Below, piece by piece: positions 14,931-30,249 of a DNA stretch of 64,000 bases. The position numbers and the translations under genes are program-made. Source of the stretch: Microcoleus sp. bin38.metabat.b11b12b14.051 (lineage in GTDB: Bacteria > Cyanobacteriota > Cyanobacteriia > Cyanobacteriales > Microcoleaceae); assembly GCF_013299165.1 (NCBI RefSeq), contig NZ_JAAFKD010000016.1:1-64000 (forward strand), read 5' to 3'. Each line of letters opens with the position of its first letter. Positions within the stretch are counted from its first letter, which is position 1. The notes beneath the pieces were generated by a model. The model did no database searches, had not been told where the DNA came from, and worked only from the letters and a program-made list of their open reading frames with translations.

Positions 14931-17900
14931 TTACCGCCGGCCCAGCAACTCTGAAAGCAGCGTCACCAACCTACTCGGATCGACAGGTTTGGAAATATGC
15001 CCCTGGAAACCTGCTAAAACTGCTTGTTGGCGATCTTCAAATCTGGCATAAGCAGTCAAAGCGAGGGCTGGAATTCGTCCTCCCTGTTGAGGCGGTAGAG
15101 AGCGCACCCGCCTCAACAGGGCATAACCATCCATCCCTGGCATCCCAATATCGCTAACCAAAATATCCGGTTTAAAGCAGGCCAAGAGTTCCAAAAACTC
15201 CTCAGCCGAGGATGCGGCGAGCACGTTGGCGCCATATTCTTCTAGGATGAAGGCGAGCAACTCGCGGGTATCTAGTTCGTCGTCAACCAGTAAAACTCGG
15301 ATGCCCGCGAGATCGATCTCGGCGCCGCCTGACTCTTGGGCGGGGGCGGTTTGCGGTTCCACACCAACCAGCGGTAGCCTGACAGTAAATGTCGCTCCTT
15401 GGCCCTGGCCCGCACTCTGGGCAGAGATTGTGCCGCCGTGCGCTGCCACCAAATTATTGACGATCGCCAGCCCCAGTCCCAATCCGCCATGCTTGCGAGT
15501 AATCGAAGCATCCTCTTGACGGAAATGCTCAAAAATGTGCGGCAGGAACTCTGAACTAATACCTTTGCCAGTATCGGTAATTCTAATCTGGGCCTGCTCG
15601 TCTTTGCGCTCTAGATAAATTTCTACTTGTCCGCCGTTAGGGGTGAATTTAATCGCATTCGAGAGCAGATTCCAGACTATCTGCTGCAAGCGCACCCCAT
15701 CACCGGAAACCTCTCCAATATTCTCTAAAACCGGATGAATCACAATTGATTTAGCAACTGTTGCAGTTCTAACTGTTTCCAGAGCTGACTCAATAATGAA
15801 TACTAAATTAACCGGTTCTACGTTCAAAGCCATTTTACCGCGCAAAATCCGAGCGACATCCAGCAGGTCATCAATCAGTTGGGTTTGTAATAAAACATTG
15901 CGTTCGATCGTTGCTAGAGCGCTGGTGGTTGTCGCTGCGTCTAATTTGCGAGTTTGCATCAGTTGCGTCCAGCCCAAGATCGGGTTGAGAGGCGAACGCA
16001 GTTCGTGAGAAAGAACCGCCAGAAACTCATCTTTGACGCGGTTGGCTCTTTCCAATTCTGCTCGTGCTGCTTGTTCTTGAACCAGGATGCGATCGCGCTC
16101 AGCTTGTATCTCCACCCGATCGTGGATATCGGTAAAAGTGCCAAACCATTTAACCAGGCAACCATAGACATCGCGCACCGGACAGCCGCGCAATAGATGC
16201 CAGCGATACGCGCCCTCAGAAGACTTCAGTCGGTATTGAATTTCGTAGATTTCAGTATCGTTGCTTGGGTCTTGAATTTCGGAGATTTCAGCATCGTTGT
16301 TGTGGCAATTGGGAGCCGAGTCCCAGAATCCTTCAACTTGTGGCAAATCAGCCGGATGAACCGACTGCATCCAATTTTTTTCCGCCTCTGCCAGCGGCAG
16401 TCCGGTATACTCCAACCAGCGTTGATTCAAGTAATTAATGTTGCCTCGGGCGTCACTTGCCCAGACAATATTGGGAACGCTGTTAGCTAACTGACGGTAG
16501 CGTGCTTCGCTCTCGCGCAGAGCTTCTTCTGCCTGTTTGCGATCGCTAATATCTCGCGAAACCGCTAAAAATTGCGTTACTTGACCTGTGACATCCCGAA
16601 TCGGCGTTACCACCACATCCCACCATTTCGGCGTACCTTTGGCGGTTCTGCAATTACCCTGGAATCTACCCAAATTACCTGACTTAGCAGCAGCCAGCGC
16701 GGACTCTATTTCCTGCCGATCTTGCTGTTGCCACAGACAGCTCCACTGCGCGTTGATGTAGGGGGTCACATCATCAATCTCCATCAGACACATCCCACCT
16801 GCATTCATGTACAACAGCCGTCCCTCTAGAGAAAGTATTTTGATGCAATCACTGCTGCTTTCCAAAAGTCTTTGCTTAAACTCTTCACTTTGTCGCAGTG
16901 CTTCCTCAGCTTGTTTGCGAGCGGTGATATCCAGCGACAAACCAGCCAGCAATCGCCGTTCAACAGACAGTTGAATCGGAAATTTATAGGAGATATAACA
17001 ATGTTCCGCGTCTTGCTGAGCGTAAGTTTCCATGACCTCAATTGCCTGGTTGGCACCAAGGGCACTCAGATCGTTATTCCAATACTCGTTGGCTTTGTGA
17101 GGTTCAAATAATTCAAAATCAGTTTTGCCGATCCAATCTGTGCTACCTCGCTGACAAACTCGTTCATTTATGGAATTGACATATACGTAACGCCCGTCTT
17201 CATCTTTAATGTAGGCAGTAGCAGGACTGTAACGCATAAACGCTTCAAATAAAGCTTGACTTTCCCGCAGCGCTGCTTCTCCCTGTTTGCGTTCGCTCAA
17301 TTCAATTTGAACTTGCTGATAAAGTTCGGCCTGGTGAATGGCAACACCAACCTGATTGGTGAGCTCTTTAAGCAAATCAATCTCTACTGCTTGCCACTGG
17401 CGGGGCGCAGAACACTGGTTGGCAACTAATAAGCCCCACAATGCTTCTCCGTGCAGAATTGGAACTGCCAGGTTGGCGCGCACTTGAAATCGGGCAAGCA
17501 AATCGAGGTGACACTGGCTTAAAGGAGCGGTATCAATATCATCAACTGTCTGGATGCGTCCCAGCAGATAGTCTTCAGCCCCGGTTTCCCTGAAATGCCG
17601 ATCGTCAACCTCGGCATCTAGGATCGGCAACCAGTTTTCACCGACAGATTCCACAATTACCCTGCCGCTAGAGTCTGGCCCAAAGCGATACACGAAGACT
17701 CGATCAGCTTGCAGAAAATGGCGCACTTCCACCACCGTTGTCTCCAGGATTTCGTTCACCTCAAGCGTCTGTCGCACTCGCACCGCGATCTGCGCCACCA
17801 GGGACGCTCGAGCAGTTTGCTGTCGCAGAGCATCTTCTACCCGCTGCCGCTCTTGCAATTCGCGCAGAGCCTGCTGATAAAGTTCTGCCTGTTGTAAGGC

Positions 17901-18791
17901 AATGCCAGCCTGAGTTGCTAATTCTTGGAGCAACTCGATTTCTAACGGTTGCCACTGGCGGGGGGAAGTGCAGTGATGGGCGATCAGCATTCCCCACAAT
18001 TTGTTATCTTGCAGGATCGGCACCACTAAATTTGCCCGTACCTGCAAACTTGCCAGCAACTCGACGTGGCAAGGTTTGATGCTGCCATCGTGAATATCTG
18101 GTTTGACGGTGACTAATCCCTCGTGGAATGATTGCAGGTAGGATTCACCCAGACAAGGGTGATAAAGTGAGGTAGCCAGCAGAGGAGTCCATCGATCGCC
18201 GATCGATTCTGTGATTACCTTACCCCAGCCGTCTGACTGCAAGCGGAAAATCAGCACCCGATCGGTATGCAGAAACTGCCGTACCTCTGTCACAGTTGTC
18301 TGTAGAATTTGATCCAACTCTAGCGATTGATGAATTTGCCGAGTAATCTGCCCTATCACTCGCTCTCGTTCGAGCCGCTGTTGCAATTGGGCGCGCAACT
18401 GCACGGTTTCAATCGCTCCGTTTACCGCCAGATGCAAACTCTCTGGCGTCATCTGCTCTTTGACTAGATAGTCTTGTGCGCCCGCTTTCATCGCTTGTAC
18501 GGCGATCGCCTCATTTCCCTGGCCTGTCACCACAATTACGGGCAAACACCTTTGCTGGGCCTCGTTTGGCAGTTGAGCCAGCCACTCGAGTCCATCTAAG
18601 TCTGGCAATCGGTAATCTAGCAACACGGCATCTGGTTGGTGGTGCTGCCACAGCTCGAAGCCTTTGCGCCCCAAACTTGCTTCGATAAAAATATATTTGT
18701 ACTCGCGATCGCGCAGCAGGTACCGCCGATACAGCTCCCGGTCTTCGGGACAATCATCAATAATTAATATAGTGCGCTGGCTTTGACTCAT
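14931..18791 (-). CDS. Hybrid sensor kinase: REC-GAF-GAF-PAS-PAS-PAS-HisKA-HATPase-REC
   Basis: 1286 aa. The N-terminal receiver (6-125) has phospho-acceptor Asp59. GAF1 is at about 150-305 and GAF2 at about 335-490. PAS domains lie at about 510-625, 635-755 and 760-895. HisKA has His929 in LSHELRSP, and the HATPase domain spans about 1020-1140 (N box near 1041-1046, DTGKGI near 1073). The C-terminal receiver has Asp1214. Both GAF domains carry a Cys-His pair (Cys241-His242, Cys427-His428) followed by QVRANL-VPI, the position where cyanobacteriochromes bind a bilin, so light sensing is plausible though not shown. It lies downstream of the phytochrome and rcp genes on the same strand, and the IscB element sits between them. 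No good ribosome site precedes the ATG. Confidence 0.9.
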   Translation of the reverse strand: MSQSQRTILIIDDCPEDRELYRRYLLRDREYKYIFIEASLGRKGFELWQHHQPDAVLLDYRLPDLDGLEWLAQLPNEAQQRCLPVIVVTGQGNEAIAVQAMKAGAQDYLVKEQMTPESLHLAVNGAIETVQLRAQLQQRLERERVIGQITRQIHQSLELDQILQTTVTEVRQFLHTDRVLIFRLQSDGWGKVITESIGDRWTPLLATSLYHPCLGESYLQSFHEGLVTVKPDIHDGSIKPCHVELLASLQVRANLVVPILQDNKLWGMLIAHHCTSPRQWQPLEIELLQELATQAGIALQQAELYQQALRELQERQRVEDALRQQTARASLVAQIAVRVRQTLEVNEILETTVVEVRHFLQADRVFVYRFGPDSSGRVIVESVGENWLPILDAEVDDRHFRETGAEDYLLGRIQTVDDIDTAPLSQCHLDLLARFQVRANLAVPILHGEALWGLLVANQCSAPRQWQAVEIDLLKELTNQVGVAIHQAELYQQVQIELSERKQGEAALRESQALFEAFMRYSPATAYIKDEDGRYVYVNSINERVCQRGSTDWIGKTDFELFEPHKANEYWNNDLSALGANQAIEVMETYAQQDAEHCYISYKFPIQLSVERRLLAGLSLDITARKQAEEALRQSEEFKQRLLESSSDCIKILSLEGRLLYMNAGGMCLMEIDDVTPYINAQWSCLWQQQDRQEIESALAAAKSGNLGRFQGNCRTAKGTPKWWDVVVTPIRDVTGQVTQFLAVSRDISDRKQAEEALRESEARYRQLANSVPNIVWASDARGNINYLNQRWLEYTGLPLAEAEKNWMQSVHPADLPQVEGFWDSAPNCHNNDAEISEIQDPSNDTEIYEIQYRLKSSEGAYRWHLLRGCPVRDVYGCLVKWFGTFTDIHDRVEIQAERDRILVQEQAARAELERANRVKDEFLAVLSHELRSPLNPILGWTQLMQTRKLDAATTTSALATIERNVLLQTQLIDDLLDVARILRGKMALNVEPVNLVFIIESALETVRTATVAKSIVIHPVLENIGEVSGDGVRLQQIVWNLLSNAIKFTPNGGQVEIYLERKDEQAQIRITDTGKGISSEFLPHIFEHFRQEDASITRKHGGLGLGLAIVNNLVAAHGGTISAQSAGQGQGATFTVRLPLVGVEPQTAPAQESGGAEIDLAGIRVLLVDDELDTRELLAFILEEYGANVLAASSAEEFLELLACFKPDILVSDIGMPGMDGYALLRRVRSLPPQQGGRIPALALTAYARFEDRQQAVLAGFQGHISKPVDPSRLVTLLSELLGRR

Positions 18792-18881
18792 AAAAAGAAA
18801 TACGGTAAGTGGGAAACTCGGCGACTTTAGTCCTTCCTAGGGAAACGACCCGGCGGTTTCAACCGCCTTGAATCTTCAATC

Positions 18882-20153
18882 TCAAAATGAGTAGCTGTAA
18901 CCATCTTTATGGTGAACTATTTTGCAGTATTTGTGACTAATCCCTTGCACCAATTCTGATGCTGAGATATTGAACGAACCCGTTGTTCTAACTGCAACCC
19001 GACCAACATATTCACCAATTTTCTTGCCACTGGTAACAACTGCTTTTACGATGTCACCTGTTTGAAAACCTTTTACGAATTTACTTCGAGGCACGTAACG
19101 AGATGGAAAGCCAACCTTGTCTGTGCGACATATTTGACGAGTCCCATGTCCAGTCGCCTTAATTAGCAGTGGCTTACTTGTTAGCACGGACAAGGATTCA
19201 AGTTCACCAACACAAGCAGCATCAAGCCAATGAGATTTGGGTAGTTTTAATCTAGTACGGTTGTATTTTGTCTGCCCACCGGAACCTGTCGTGACAGGTA
19301 ATCCTGTTAGCTTGAGTCGGTTGAACAACGCCCATCGAGTCGAGTTTACAGCAGCGGCATCTTTGAGCGGACGCTTAACTTGCGCCATGATCTGCTTGAG
19401 CAAGTCCGGCTTCTTAGACAGAAAATCTTTGATATCCCGAGTACCTTTCTTGAGATTACATTTCTCGCAAGCTAGGCACAAATTAGAAATCCGATTGCTA
19501 CCTCCTTTTGCTTTGGGATGAATGTGTTCAACTTGCAACGCTAAATTCTCAGCACCGCAGTAAGCACATTTTCTGTTCCATTTATTGAGCAGATATTCAC
19601 GAACTTCGTATCCAAGTAATTCGCCCTGCTGATATTCAACACCAGAGATTTCAGGATTCTCTAGTTGCTGGAGGTCAAATCGAACCAGTTCCATCGCGAT
19701 ACTACTTAAGGGTACAAGTCTGCGTAATTTATCGACCCAAGTTAAAGTTGTTTCTACCCGGTGCTGCAAAGATGGCGCTAGCCAACCCTTTCTACGAGTA
19801 CGATTTAGGAAACGCGCTTGGCGGTAACGAGTGTGACGATTTCGACGAACTCGGCGCAGTAAACGACGGGATTCAAGACTGGCTTTGATAGCTTGACCAC
19901 GATGAGTTAGCTCAGCGCCAAAGATTACTTTTTCGCCTTGCAGTAAAGCGATGCCAGTGGTTTTTGATCCTGGATCTAATTTGAGTGAGATTGATTCGAT
20001 GGTTGCTGTTACCGCCTTCTTAAGAATAATGGTATACGGGAATCTTCTGAAAACAGCCGCTTTACCGGCGGCCAATAACTTACGAGCTATTGACGGCTTG
20101 CAAGGTGTGAGTGGTTTTCTGTTTGTATCAAGTACGAAAATAAAGTTGGACAT
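18882..20153 (-). CDS. iscB: IscB RNA-guided nuclease (OMEGA system)
   Basis: 423 aa. An N-terminal PLMP-type domain (1-50) is followed by RuvC-I with Asp60 in LKLDPGSKTTGIAL, an Arg-rich bridge helix (about 95-122), and RuvC-II with Glu155 in AMELVRFD. The HNH domain spans about 188-240, with zinc cysteines Cys196, Cys199, Cys229 and Cys232 and the catalytic EHIHPK stretch (209-214). RuvC-III has His308 and Asp311 in HWLDAACVG. The C-terminal part (about 325-423) corresponds to the region that reads the target-adjacent motif. All expected catalytic residues are present, so it should cut both strands of a target chosen by an omega-RNA. IscB is the ancestor group of Cas9. A ggaggg ribosome site precedes ATG at 20153, and the putative omega-RNA lies directly upstream. 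Confidence 0.93.
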   Translation of the reverse strand: MSNFIFVLDTNRKPLTPCKPSIARKLLAAGKAAVFRRFPYTIILKKAVTATIESISLKLDPGSKTTGIALLQGEKVIFGAELTHRGQAIKASLESRRLLRRVRRNRHTRYRQARFLNRTRRKGWLAPSLQHRVETTLTWVDKLRRLVPLSSIAMELVRFDLQQLENPEISGVEYQQGELLGYEVREYLLNKWNRKCAYCGAENLALQVEHIHPKAKGGSNRISNLCLACEKCNLKKGTRDIKDFLSKKPDLLKQIMAQVKRPLKDAAAVNSTRWALFNRLKLTGLPVTTGSGGQTKYNRTRLKLPKSHWLDAACVGELESLSVLTSKPLLIKATGHGTRQICRTDKVGFPSRYVPRSKFVKGFQTGDIVKAVVTSGKKIGEYVGRVAVRTTGSFNISASELVQGISHKYCKIVHHKDGYSYSF

Positions 20154-20175
20154 TGTTGTGTCCCTCCACTTGCGT

Positions 20176-20400
20176 GTAATGTTAGCTTGTCGGTCAATGT
20201 TATAGGAGCTTTTTAAACCTGCAACACTGTCGAGAGTGACTTTAAGACTGTTTAATTGCAGATGACAGAGCAGGAAACTAGCTTCGCATTCACCTGGTGT
20301 CGTGACTCAAATAACGTAGACCTCTAAGGTCTTAGGCTGGTCAGCACAGCTTGCTCGATTTCTCTTACAAGCTCAGTCCCTTTAGGGCTGAGTTACTGAC
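20176..20400 (-). ncRNA. Putative omega-RNA (HEARO RNA) of the IscB element
   Basis: The RNA scaffold reads from 20400 down to about 20176 and may extend into the iscB leader. The 5' part folds by eye. GTCAG at the 5' end pairs with CTGAC about 60 bases later. Inside this are a CTCAG-CCC/GGG-CTGAG hairpin and a CTTG/CAAG hairpin. Downstream, CTGCAA pairs with TTGCAG. A second copy at 29806-30032 keeps these stems with changed bases. IscB omega-RNAs lie upstream of iscB with the guide at their 5' end (family knowledge). The guide would therefore be the 16-20 bases above 20400, which here are the last codons of rcp. Confidence 0.85.
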
Positions 20401-24877: not shown

Positions 24878-25083
24878 GGTTAGTAGTGAGGACTTCAGTC
24901 CTTCTAAGGTTAGTAGTGAGGACTTCAGTCCTTCTAAGGTTAGTAGTGAGGACTTCAGTCCTTCTAAGGTTAGTAGTGAGGACTTCAGTCCGCACTACTA
25001 ACCAGAGGACTGAAGTCCTCACTACGAAACTAAGTGAGGACTTAAGTCATGAGAAAGAAGGACTGAAGTCCTCACTACGAACC
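24878..25083. repeat. Tandem 30-bp GGACTTCAGTCC repeats
   Basis: Four nearly perfect 30-base units (gttagtagtgaggacttcagtccttctaag type) run from 24878 to about 25000. Inverted copies (ggactgaagtcctcactac) follow to 25083. The left and right halves can fold into one long hairpin. There are no spacers, so this is not a CRISPR array. It lies between the acetyltransferase start and the clpX stop. Confidence 0.85.
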
Positions 25084-28184: not shown

Positions 28185-29588
28185 TTACTCTTCGCCTACG
28201 ACTTCCACTTCAACGGTGGTTGCTTCTGGAGCATTTTCGGGCTCTGATTCCTCTGCTGCGGGAGTCAGAGAACCTTCCGGTACGAGTTCGATTGTTCCTT
28301 TTTCTTCCAACCATTTCAGGGTTTTTTGTTTCAGCAAGTCTTCTGCTACAAATTCCCGCAATCTTTGAGGGTCAAAATCTCCTTTCGGAAACTGCTTTCT
28401 GACTTTTGCTACTTCGGCGACTAATTCTGCGTCATCCACAGACAAAGATTCCAGCTTCGCTACTTCTGCTAGGGCTAGAGACTGCTTGAGTCTCTCTACT
28501 GCTTCCGGGCGCGAGCGTTCTCGCATGGGCCCGATATTTTCTTCGGTAAACAGTTGGTTGATATCTATGCCATAATTTTTTAACTGCATGGCTTGTTGGT
28601 TGAGCAAGTAATCGATTTCGCGATCGAGCATTGTTTCGGGAATTTCTACATCAATTAGATCCACTAGCGCGGCTGATATAGCTTTTTCCTTGTTAGCCGA
28701 TATCTTGTTTTCTTGCTCTGCTTTAAACCGAGTTTCTAGGGATTGGCGCAGTTCTGCTAAAGTTTCAAACTCGCTAACTTCTTGGGCGAAGTCGTCGTCT
28801 AACTCTGGCAATTCTTTTTCCTTAAGTTCTTTCAGAGTAATCGTAAATACTGCTGGTTTTCCCGCCAGTTCTTCACTGCTGTACTCCGGAGGGAACTGGA
28901 CAGAAACTTCTCTGGTTTCTCCCGAATTCATTCCCATCATGCCTTGGATAAAGCCTGGTACAAACTGATTTTCTGACAGTTCTACTTGAAAGTCTTCTGC
29001 GTCGCCGCCGGGAATTTCTGCGGGAGTTTCGCCTTCTGCTGCTTCGGCAAATCTACCGGCAAAATCAACTAAAGCCACGTCTCCCAACTGAGCCGGCCGC
29101 CCTTCTACGGGGATTAAAGTAGCTTTGTCCGATCGATATTTTGCCAGTACCTCATCCACCTGAGCCTCATCATACTTAACTTCTTCTGCTTGAAGCTGCA
29201 AGCCTGTGTACTGACCCATTTTTACTTCGGGTTGTACGTCTACCTTAGCCGAAAAAGTCAGAGGCTGTTCTGGATCGAACTTCTCTAGCAATTCCTCAAA
29301 CTCGCTGCGGAGTTCAAAACTGCCAATTGCTTGAATTTTTTCTTGTTCGAGAGCTTTTTGCAGCGAGTCGTTGATCAAATTTTCTAAAGCCGTCGCCTTC
29401 AAGCGAGTCTGACCTAGGCGTTGCAGCAAAACTTGGCGGGGAACTTTGCCTTTGCGGAACCCAGGAATATTGACCTCGCGAGCGAATTGTTTGATTACCT
29501 GCTCGTAAGCTTGTTTTGATTTTTCTGATGGCACTTCGATTTCCAAACCAATTTGGCTGGCTGGAAGTTTTTCCTGGGTTACTTTCAT
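28185..29588 (-). CDS. tig: Trigger factor, ribosome-associated chaperone and prolyl isomerase
   Basis: 467 aa from ATG at 29588. An in-frame TTG at 29603 lies inside the neighbouring mobile element and is less likely. The N-terminal ribosome-binding domain includes the signature GFRKGKVP near residues 46-53. The FKBP-like domain is at about 155-245 (GDVALVDFAGRF). The C-terminal helical chaperone arms end in an acidic Glu/Ala-rich tail. Trigger factor meets nascent chains at the ribosome exit. It is the first gene of the tig-clpP-clpX set. Its 5' leader is contributed by the omega-RNA-bearing element whose end is about ten bases from the ATG. Confidence 0.96.
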   Translation of the reverse strand: MKVTQEKLPASQIGLEIEVPSEKSKQAYEQVIKQFAREVNIPGFRKGKVPRQVLLQRLGQTRLKATALENLINDSLQKALEQEKIQAIGSFELRSEFEELLEKFDPEQPLTFSAKVDVQPEVKMGQYTGLQLQAEEVKYDEAQVDEVLAKYRSDKATLIPVEGRPAQLGDVALVDFAGRFAEAAEGETPAEIPGGDAEDFQVELSENQFVPGFIQGMMGMNSGETREVSVQFPPEYSSEELAGKPAVFTITLKELKEKELPELDDDFAQEVSEFETLAELRQSLETRFKAEQENKISANKEKAISAALVDLIDVEIPETMLDREIDYLLNQQAMQLKNYGIDINQLFTEENIGPMRERSRPEAVERLKQSLALAEVAKLESLSVDDAELVAEVAKVRKQFPKGDFDPQRLREFVAEDLLKQKTLKWLEEKGTIELVPEGSLTPAAEESEPENAPEATTVEVEVVGEE

Positions 29589-29597
29589 AAAAACTCT

Positions 29598-30032
29598 CGG
29601 CAAGTGTGAAACTCAGTCCCTTTAGGGCTGAGAGGAAAACGACGCGAGCGACTTTTTCAGTCGCGTTGAATGTTTTCATTACCGCGCAAGGGAATTGCTT
29701 GGCGAGAGTGTACTTTTGTAATGTACTTTCAATGGGACAATTACCATCTCAAACCTTACAATCCTGTACGCATAATGTTTGCTCTTTTGGAGCCTCCCTT
29801 ACGGGGTAATGTTAGCTTGTCGGTCAATGTTATAAGGGCTTTTTCCGGCTAGCAGCACTGTAAAGAGTGACTTTAGAACTGTTTAACCACTAGCGACAGA
29901 GCAGGGGACTAGCTTCGCATCCACAGGGTGTCGTGACCCAAATAACGTAGACCTCGAAAGTCTTAGGCTGGTCAGTACAGCTTGTTTGATTACTCTTACA
30001 AGCTCAGTGGCACTTAGCCATGAGTTACTGAC
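29598..30032 (-). mobile_element. IscB-less derivative element carrying an omega-RNA (MITE-like)
   Basis: About 435 bases. The left part (30032 down to 29806) aligns with the omega-RNA of the IscB element over its whole length. The right part (about 29598-29680) aligns with the end hairpins of that element: a gcgac...gtcgc hairpin followed by gtcgttttcct, a second hairpin and cacttgccg. Between them, where iscB should be, only about 120 bases remain. They include a ribosome-site-like ggagg and a five-codon frame. The element therefore looks like an internal deletion product that could still be moved in trans. Confidence 0.8.
29806..30032 (-). ncRNA. Orphan omega-RNA (HEARO-type) without adjacent iscB
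   Basis: 227 bases matching the 225-base RNA upstream of iscB at roughly four of five positions by eye. The long identical block covers the conserved centre around ctaagac and acgttattt. Stems are kept while their bases change. The first inner hairpin is CTCA-TGGC/GCCA-CTGAG here against CTCAG-CCC/GGG-CTGAG there. The later stem is GCTAG/CTAGC here against CTGCAA/TTGCAG there. The 5' flank, which would be the guide, is unrelated to that of the first copy. It probably works with IscB made from 18882-20153 or elsewhere in the genome (inference). Confidence 0.8.
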
Positions 30033-30047
30033 CGGCTTTTGTGATAT

Positions 30048-30249
30048 TTAACAATTTTGATAAAATACATACAAATCTGACTTTGCTTGCATTTTAAGTT
30101 TGTACGCTTTGACTTGTAACGGCACAACTACCAACACCTCTACCGGATTAGACTGTAAGTCGTTTCCGGCTACTTTTTTCGCTCTTGCCAAATAGTTTTG
30201 GTTTGAGGATACTAGGTTTGGCTGCTAGGAATGTGGATGTTAAGTCCAT
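30048..30249 (-). pseudogene. Broken small gene upstream of the orphan omega-RNA
   Basis: The last 58 codons (30224 down to the TAA at 30048-30050) read as a well-behaved protein tail, for example LARAKKVAGND and VEVLVVVPLQVKAYKLKMQ. They have no good start and a stop codon directly upstream. A second frame opens with ATG at 30249 (MDLTSTFLAAKPSILKPKL) and runs into the same region, so a single frameshift near 30190 would join them into about 67 residues. I do not recognise the family. The omega-RNA scaffold starts 15 bases after the TAA, so the putative guide is the 3' flank of this remnant. Confidence 0.45.

Follow-up and report, generated by a model that had tools for sequence, protein, structure and literature searches.

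HEARO RNAs, the guides of IscB nucleases and stand-alone omega-RNAs are already known, and a preference of these elements for insertion at ATGA or GTGA may be known as well: insertion of HEARO next to the two tetranucleotides was reportedly noted in work from 2009. ATGA is the TAM of an AwaIscB. DtIsrB, a relative, prefers an NTGA TAM, and stand-alone omega-RNAs were reported to work with IscB (Altae-Tran et al., 2021), both as given in PMC9581776. About 16–17 nt beside the scaffold is the guide length in a characterised IscB (PMC9640706). In Limnospira indica, a transcriptome study treated HEARO RNAs as remnants, left them out of consideration and called for their precise location (PMC8400943).

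The locus compared here with these systems lies in a stretch of 64,000 nucleotides, the window, which forms positions 1 to 64,000 of contig NZ_JAAFKD010000016.1 of Microcoleus sp. (assembly GCF_013299165.1; genome G000). It is an iscB-less element that occupies the 5′ leader of a housekeeping gene, tig, and stops exactly at the start codon. Its parts, and those of an iscB-bearing element in the same window, are as follows.

29589–30032, minus strand: complete iscB-less (stand-alone guide) element, 444 bp, with borders taken from empty sites in congeners
29806–30032, minus strand: HEARO/omega-RNA scaffold, a full-length match to RF02033 (113.8 bits against a gathering score of 83, E 1e-22, model positions 1–211)
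30033–30052, minus strand: guide position, formed by the native tig leader; its 20 nt recur unchanged at the empty tig of four congeners
29589–29805, minus strand: 3′ tail without iscB, with terminal hairpin CTCAGCCCTAAAGGGACTGAG and end ...CTTGCCGAGAGTTTTT, from an alignment of 15 family members
29585–29588, minus strand: ATGA at the 3′ junction, both insertion-site tetranucleotide (putative TAM) and start of tig
28185–29588, minus strand: tig, trigger factor of 467 aa (Pfam Trigger_N, Trigger_C and FKBP_C), whose start codon abuts the element
18792–20400, minus strand: iscB-bearing element, ending exactly at the start codon (MSQSQRTILIIDD...) of a 1286-aa hybrid kinase (open reading frame 14931–18791)
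20176–20400, minus strand: omega-RNA of the iscB element (RF02033, 132.2 bits), directly upstream of iscB
18882–20153, minus strand: IscB, 423 aa, with RRXRR and HNH domains, candidate nuclease in trans

The initial annotation had described a MITE that carries an omega-RNA and has lost iscB; this description is borne out, and the omega-RNA is complete. The RNA exceeds the curated RF02033 cut-off across the full model, no homology to the window IscB was found within 1450 bases downstream of it, and 16 frames from iscB-linked copies showed no homology to the DNA downstream. The extent first proposed, 29598–30032 or about 435 bases, holds at the 30032 end; the 3′ end lies at 29589, where it is fixed by the tig ATG and by the congeneric empty sites, and the element is therefore 444 bp long. 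Similar hairpins stand at both ends. The likeness between the two omega-RNAs of the window, which might have been confined to the DNA ends, is not limited to them, because it extends through an alignment of 227 bases at 83% identity. In RNA sequence the orphan is closest to fellow orphans of G000, at 95.6% and 91.7% identity, and its 5′ flank is unlike the 5′ flanks of other copies. Elsewhere in the window, a palindromic repeat at 24940–25028 gives sub-cut-off matches to Rfam mir-3431 on both strands (49.5 and 37 bits against 100) and is perhaps a MITE-like hairpin.

What the initial annotation overlooked is the location of the element at the tig start codon and the match between its guide and the empty allele. 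The tig ATG occupies 29588–29586 and begins at the very next base after the element end at 29589. Among 17 tig loci in the genus, two (G000 and G016) carry the element at the start codon, one (G008) carries a tail remnant and 14 have none there. The empty tig of G007, G001, G013 and G009 joins ...AAATATCACAAAAGCCG directly to ATGAAAG, and G000 has the same flank, then the element, then ATGAAAG; the insertion is therefore exact, with no duplication and no base gained or lost. Read as ...GTTAAATATCACAAAAGCCG before ATGAAAG, these four genes share their 20 guide-side nucleotides with the flank of the window copy. Taken as 16 nt, the tig guide is exact in the four empty loci, has one mismatch in five others (G011, G002, G012, G015 and G005), differs at two of 16 positions in G010 and G017, and differs at six or more, ungapped, in G004, G006 and G014. 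The element lies in sense orientation and its 3′ junction re-forms ATGA, leaving the coding sequence unaltered; at tig, rplR and the C26 locus alike, guide plus TAM reconstitute the empty site seen in congeners. A search of G000 for an unprotected target of the tig guide (guide plus ATGA, up to three mismatches) found none, its two matches being the occupied site, followed by GTCA, and one followed by ATTA. A scan for the sigma-70-type consensus gave five candidates where 1.7 were expected, counting both strands; two of the five lie upstream of the guide in the proper orientation, which is weak evidence for a promoter.

The element is one of many. In the 7.07 Mb of G000 there are 37 HEARO matches at E ≤ 0.001, 35 of them above the cut-off; two of the 35 are followed by a full iscB, none by a partial one and 33 by none. 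Many guides with few nucleases, in line with the one nuclease and several guides of the initial annotation, are seen in the counts: 33 iscB-less copies stand against two intact iscB genes next to a HEARO (C16 and C11), with none in the window orphan itself. The compact guide-nuclease pair that had also been proposed, with 9.4 kb between its members, is incidental, the element being one of dozens spread over many contigs. We rejected such a local pair because the genome has 33 iscB-less copies, this orphan among them, and the nearest relatives of the orphan are likewise orphans. The census was extended to a five-genome set by adding G007, G012, G016 and G020 (all 85 above-cut-off copies; 26 weaker matches omitted). 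A full iscB follows 15 of the resulting 120 copies, a partial one follows five, and 100 have none; a repeated search around these 100 with the 16 iscB-linked frames gave no additional match, one copy (G012_C52) having just 31 downstream bases, too few to be judged. A wider search, over 39 genomes with G000 among them, gave a HEARO match in 34 and an above-cut-off match in 32.

Insertion sites were called by aligning six tail sequences with the DNA that follows every copy, requiring a score of at least 40, a cut-off chosen after the scores were seen, and permitting a shift of up to 5 bases. Shuffled controls reached 32 (40 shuffles of 450 bases) and 39 (118 shuffles of up to 1700 bases), and none of 110 unrelated 1700-base pieces of G000 scored 40 or more (maximum 33); the score of 88 for the window orphan is so by construction, its own tail being among the six queries. 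A tail was recognised in 97 of the 120 copies, at ATGA in 92, at GTGA in four and at neither in one. Among iscB-less tailed copies, an open reading frame of at least 60 codons begins at the junction in 67 of 91, and one of at least 30 codons in 72 of 91; copies at the same site in two genomes are counted twice here (seven such pairs among tailed copies), so that not all copies are independent. As a baseline, 23.1% of 1613 ATGA in 264 kb of G000 open at least 60 codons, 8.1% as the first ATG of the frame, and a crude gene caller made gene starts of 80 of the 1041 gene-start and non-genic ATGA/GTGA in the same length (7.7%). Of the 33 iscB-less copies in G000, a tail was recognised in 32 and the long frame in 26. 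These data show that orphans stand before ATGA or GTGA, with a preference for start codons.

Of the 24 iscB-less copies (among 91) without a 60-codon frame, at least two resemble real small genes (38 and 33 aa). At G000:C8:67320 the orphan abuts a 38-aa psaI-like frame, a kind of start that the length cut-off undercounts. An element of the same family at G000:C7:22620 has ACGA rather than ATGA at its 3′ junction, possibly a decayed site. Among the products of docked genes in G000 are some that we take, by eye, to be LysS-, GatB-, L18-, YbaB-, ClpP-, PsaI- and HicB-like, a Pfam scan having been run for tig only. Ten loci from other families (G024, G038 and G031) were compared; nine are without iscB homology, and seven of the nine seemingly end at the start of an open reading frame, judged by eye. 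Placement at a start codon is seen in five of 13 iscB-bearing copies versus 67 of 91 orphans (Fisher p 0.02), a difference that is suggestive only, the 13 being six from the five-genome set plus seven loci called by a different, post hoc end criterion. The seven come from 38 of 80 loci examined, among which 27 showed no end, one was masked and three were duplicates.

The fold of the RNA is maintained among the orphans. RNAalifold, applied to the 33 aligned iscB-less RNAs of G000, gives 61 pairs, 25 of which have two-sided changes, and 96.9% of cells are paired; covariation is 0.346 against 0.162 for shuffled alignments and at most 0.111 for slid partners, the structure having been predicted from the very alignment scored. 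The alignment lies above all 500 shuffles on four of five measures and above the slid controls on all five; on the fifth measure, further pair types, it is lower than the shuffles. Part of the covariation could date from iscB-bearing ancestors, before the loss of iscB.

Service in trans by an IscB is plausible because the orphan fold is maintained and stand-alone omega-RNAs have been reported to work with IscB. A cognate nuclease for the window orphan is likely but not certain, since its nearest iscB-linked omega-RNA is 83% identical. The intact iscB element on C11 has a 3′ ATGA that opens just seven codons. The other iscB matches of G000 comprise one two-frame locus (C26), one RuvC-part match (C29) and five weak matches (46–59 residues, in the HNH region). 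The first, at G000:C26:40064-41419, has two separate frames with 82% and 63% identity to the window IscB; no HEARO was found within its 3.4 kb, and a match to a group II intron (RF00029, 50.3 bits) immediately precedes it. At G000:C29:50689-51372, a 31-bit HEARO directly precedes a frame about 29% identical to the RuvC part of IscB, which is possibly IsrB-like.

Two further loci allow occupied and empty sites to be compared. At rplR, two of 18 congeneric loci are occupied (G000 and G016) and 16 are empty. None of 12 congeners examined has the C26 element (from 13 other genomes with a flank match, the carrier G016 being outside this search); G007, G001 and G002 join the identical 20 guide-side nucleotides to ATGACACAG, G013 is one base off, and G011 and G008 are further off. 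The tig tree places G016 with G007 and G001, both empty, and G000 at a distance. Identity between the tig elements of G000 and G016 is 78%, and either one has its closest relatives within its own genome, so tig was probably hit twice, independently; gene conversion among copies could mimic this. A single ancestral insertion was considered and judged unlikely, given the 78% identity, the own-genome relatives and the empty sites of G007 and G001.

At rplR and C26 the elements of G000 and G016 are identical. Around the C26 orphan (L236/L237; G016:C44), about 3.7 kb are 100% identical between the two genomes, with flanks mostly at 86–93%; around rplR, about 16 kb are mostly at 100%, apart from a gap and patches of 93–97%. 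Identity in the tig region is mostly 85–97%, and a 20-kb control gave, against G016, 86–93% in the four longest alignments and at most 96% in short repeat matches (40 of 1255 candidates scored). The identical tracts fit a recent transfer by recombination, which homing predicts without being proved by it. The probable double occupation of tig, like these tracts, would suit homing and ordinary recombination alike. G016 is probably a metagenome bin, and we do not claim the tracts as proof of homing, ordinary recombination or a chimeric bin being alternatives.

The window orphan has kept the omega-RNA and both ends and carries no nuclease; its insertion site is of the ATGA or GTGA kind. The reading that we favour, and hold to be somewhat more probable than its opposite, is that these are non-autonomous guide-only elements of the IscB family (HEARO), transcribed with the leader from host promoters, served by IscB in trans, and homing by cutting empty alleles. 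The promoter of the host gene would produce a transcript of leader, omega-RNA and gene, in which the host leader becomes the guide, and an IscB encoded elsewhere in the genome would bind the orphan RNA. This IscB would cut element-free copies of the locus, since the guide sequence there stands directly before ATGA; the occupied copy, with GTCA after the guide instead, would be spared, and repair off that copy would spread or keep the element. Cyanobacterial chromosomes are commonly polyploid, and the additional copies would provide the repair template. More than 30 guides would then depend on one or two IscBs. A bolder version, which we put forward tentatively and at a little under an even chance, is a distributed RNA-guided drive, in which dozens of guide-only elements sit at leader/start-codon sites, use host promoters and re-form the start codon as TAM, while one or two IscBs police all these loci. 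In this version housekeeping genes would suit as hosts, being reliably transcribed and having leaders conserved across species, so that a guide would fit newly met empty alleles.

Docking itself could reflect survivorship rather than a need for transcription. If any ATGA or GTGA were targeted and in-gene insertions were lost, those at start codons would survive with the coding sequence intact, and selection alone would yield the observed distribution. This has a real, if lesser, chance of being the explanation: the insertion site is indeed a tetranucleotide, and some iscB-bearing copies sit at ATGA without a long frame (7, 20 and 20 codons). Non-start intergenic ATGA/GTGA are, however, about 12 times commoner than starts (961 versus 80 in 264 kb, by the crude gene caller), yet orphans are found mainly at starts. 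Selection alone speaks to the origin of docking and is compatible with homing.

That the elements are inert MITEs, moved as DNA by a transposase in trans, with the RNA part serving as mere transposon ends and no action of IscB, we consider unlikely. Non-autonomous copies are indeed far more numerous than those with iscB, the usual state of a MITE family, the hairpins of the two ends are alike, and the genome encodes Y1 transposases. Ten Y1 matches are scattered over G000, and a search near them for an element end (queries: two tails and one HEARO) gave nothing convincing, only matches of 10–12 bases. Against mere ends, the entire RNA fold is retained with compensatory changes in iscB-less copies, the four other congeneric genomes are also rich in stand-alone RNAs above the Rfam cut-off, and a plain MITE is not expected to dock at start codons. 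The position of the RNA between native leader and start codon of many conserved genes would also suit a co-opted cis-regulatory leader, a structured RNA that controls the downstream housekeeping gene with or without IscB. We give this very little weight: presence is patchy among close relatives (two of 17 tig loci, two of 18 rplR loci), a better fit to mobility, and the named genes have no obvious common function.

If service in trans is real, the OMEGA nuclease becomes a resource shared by selfish guides across an entire population of them, and the ratio of guides to nucleases, here 33 iscB-less copies to two intact iscB, a measurable feature of a genome. That elements at housekeeping genes are both transcribed and tolerated would find an explanation in their exact docking, and the tig, rplR and C26 loci, each available in empty and occupied form, offer natural substrates on which IscB homing could be examined. 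Our search of the literature by title and abstract opening, which had Weinberg 2009 and Altae-Tran 2021 outside its scope, returned no report of HEARO elements docking at start codons.

The new point is location: exact docking at the start codon, with the guides that were checked matching element-free copies of the gene. With HEARO/IscB omega-RNAs (RF02033), the elements share the full-length match, a 5′ guide outside the element, the scaffold fold and an ATGA-type motif on the far side; they differ in having no iscB and in lying within a host-gene leader, flush with the start codon. MITEs and non-autonomous insertion sequences are likewise short and multicopy, retain their ends and encode no protein, whereas here a complete, fold-conserved guide RNA is carried. 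The stand-alone omega-RNAs of Altae-Tran et al. (2021), compared through PMC9581776, also lack a nuclease and are expected to act in trans; those described here come as a genus-wide set, with empty sites, borders known to the base, guides that match the empty alleles, and docking at start codons. The gene drives of TnpB-bearing IS200/IS605 elements, as set out in PMC11870625, share a guide that records the insertion site and a nuclease that cuts element-free copies. In contrast to these, the elements described here belong to the IscB family, take their guide from the 5′ side, have guide and nuclease apart, and sit at chromosomal start codons rather than on plasmids.
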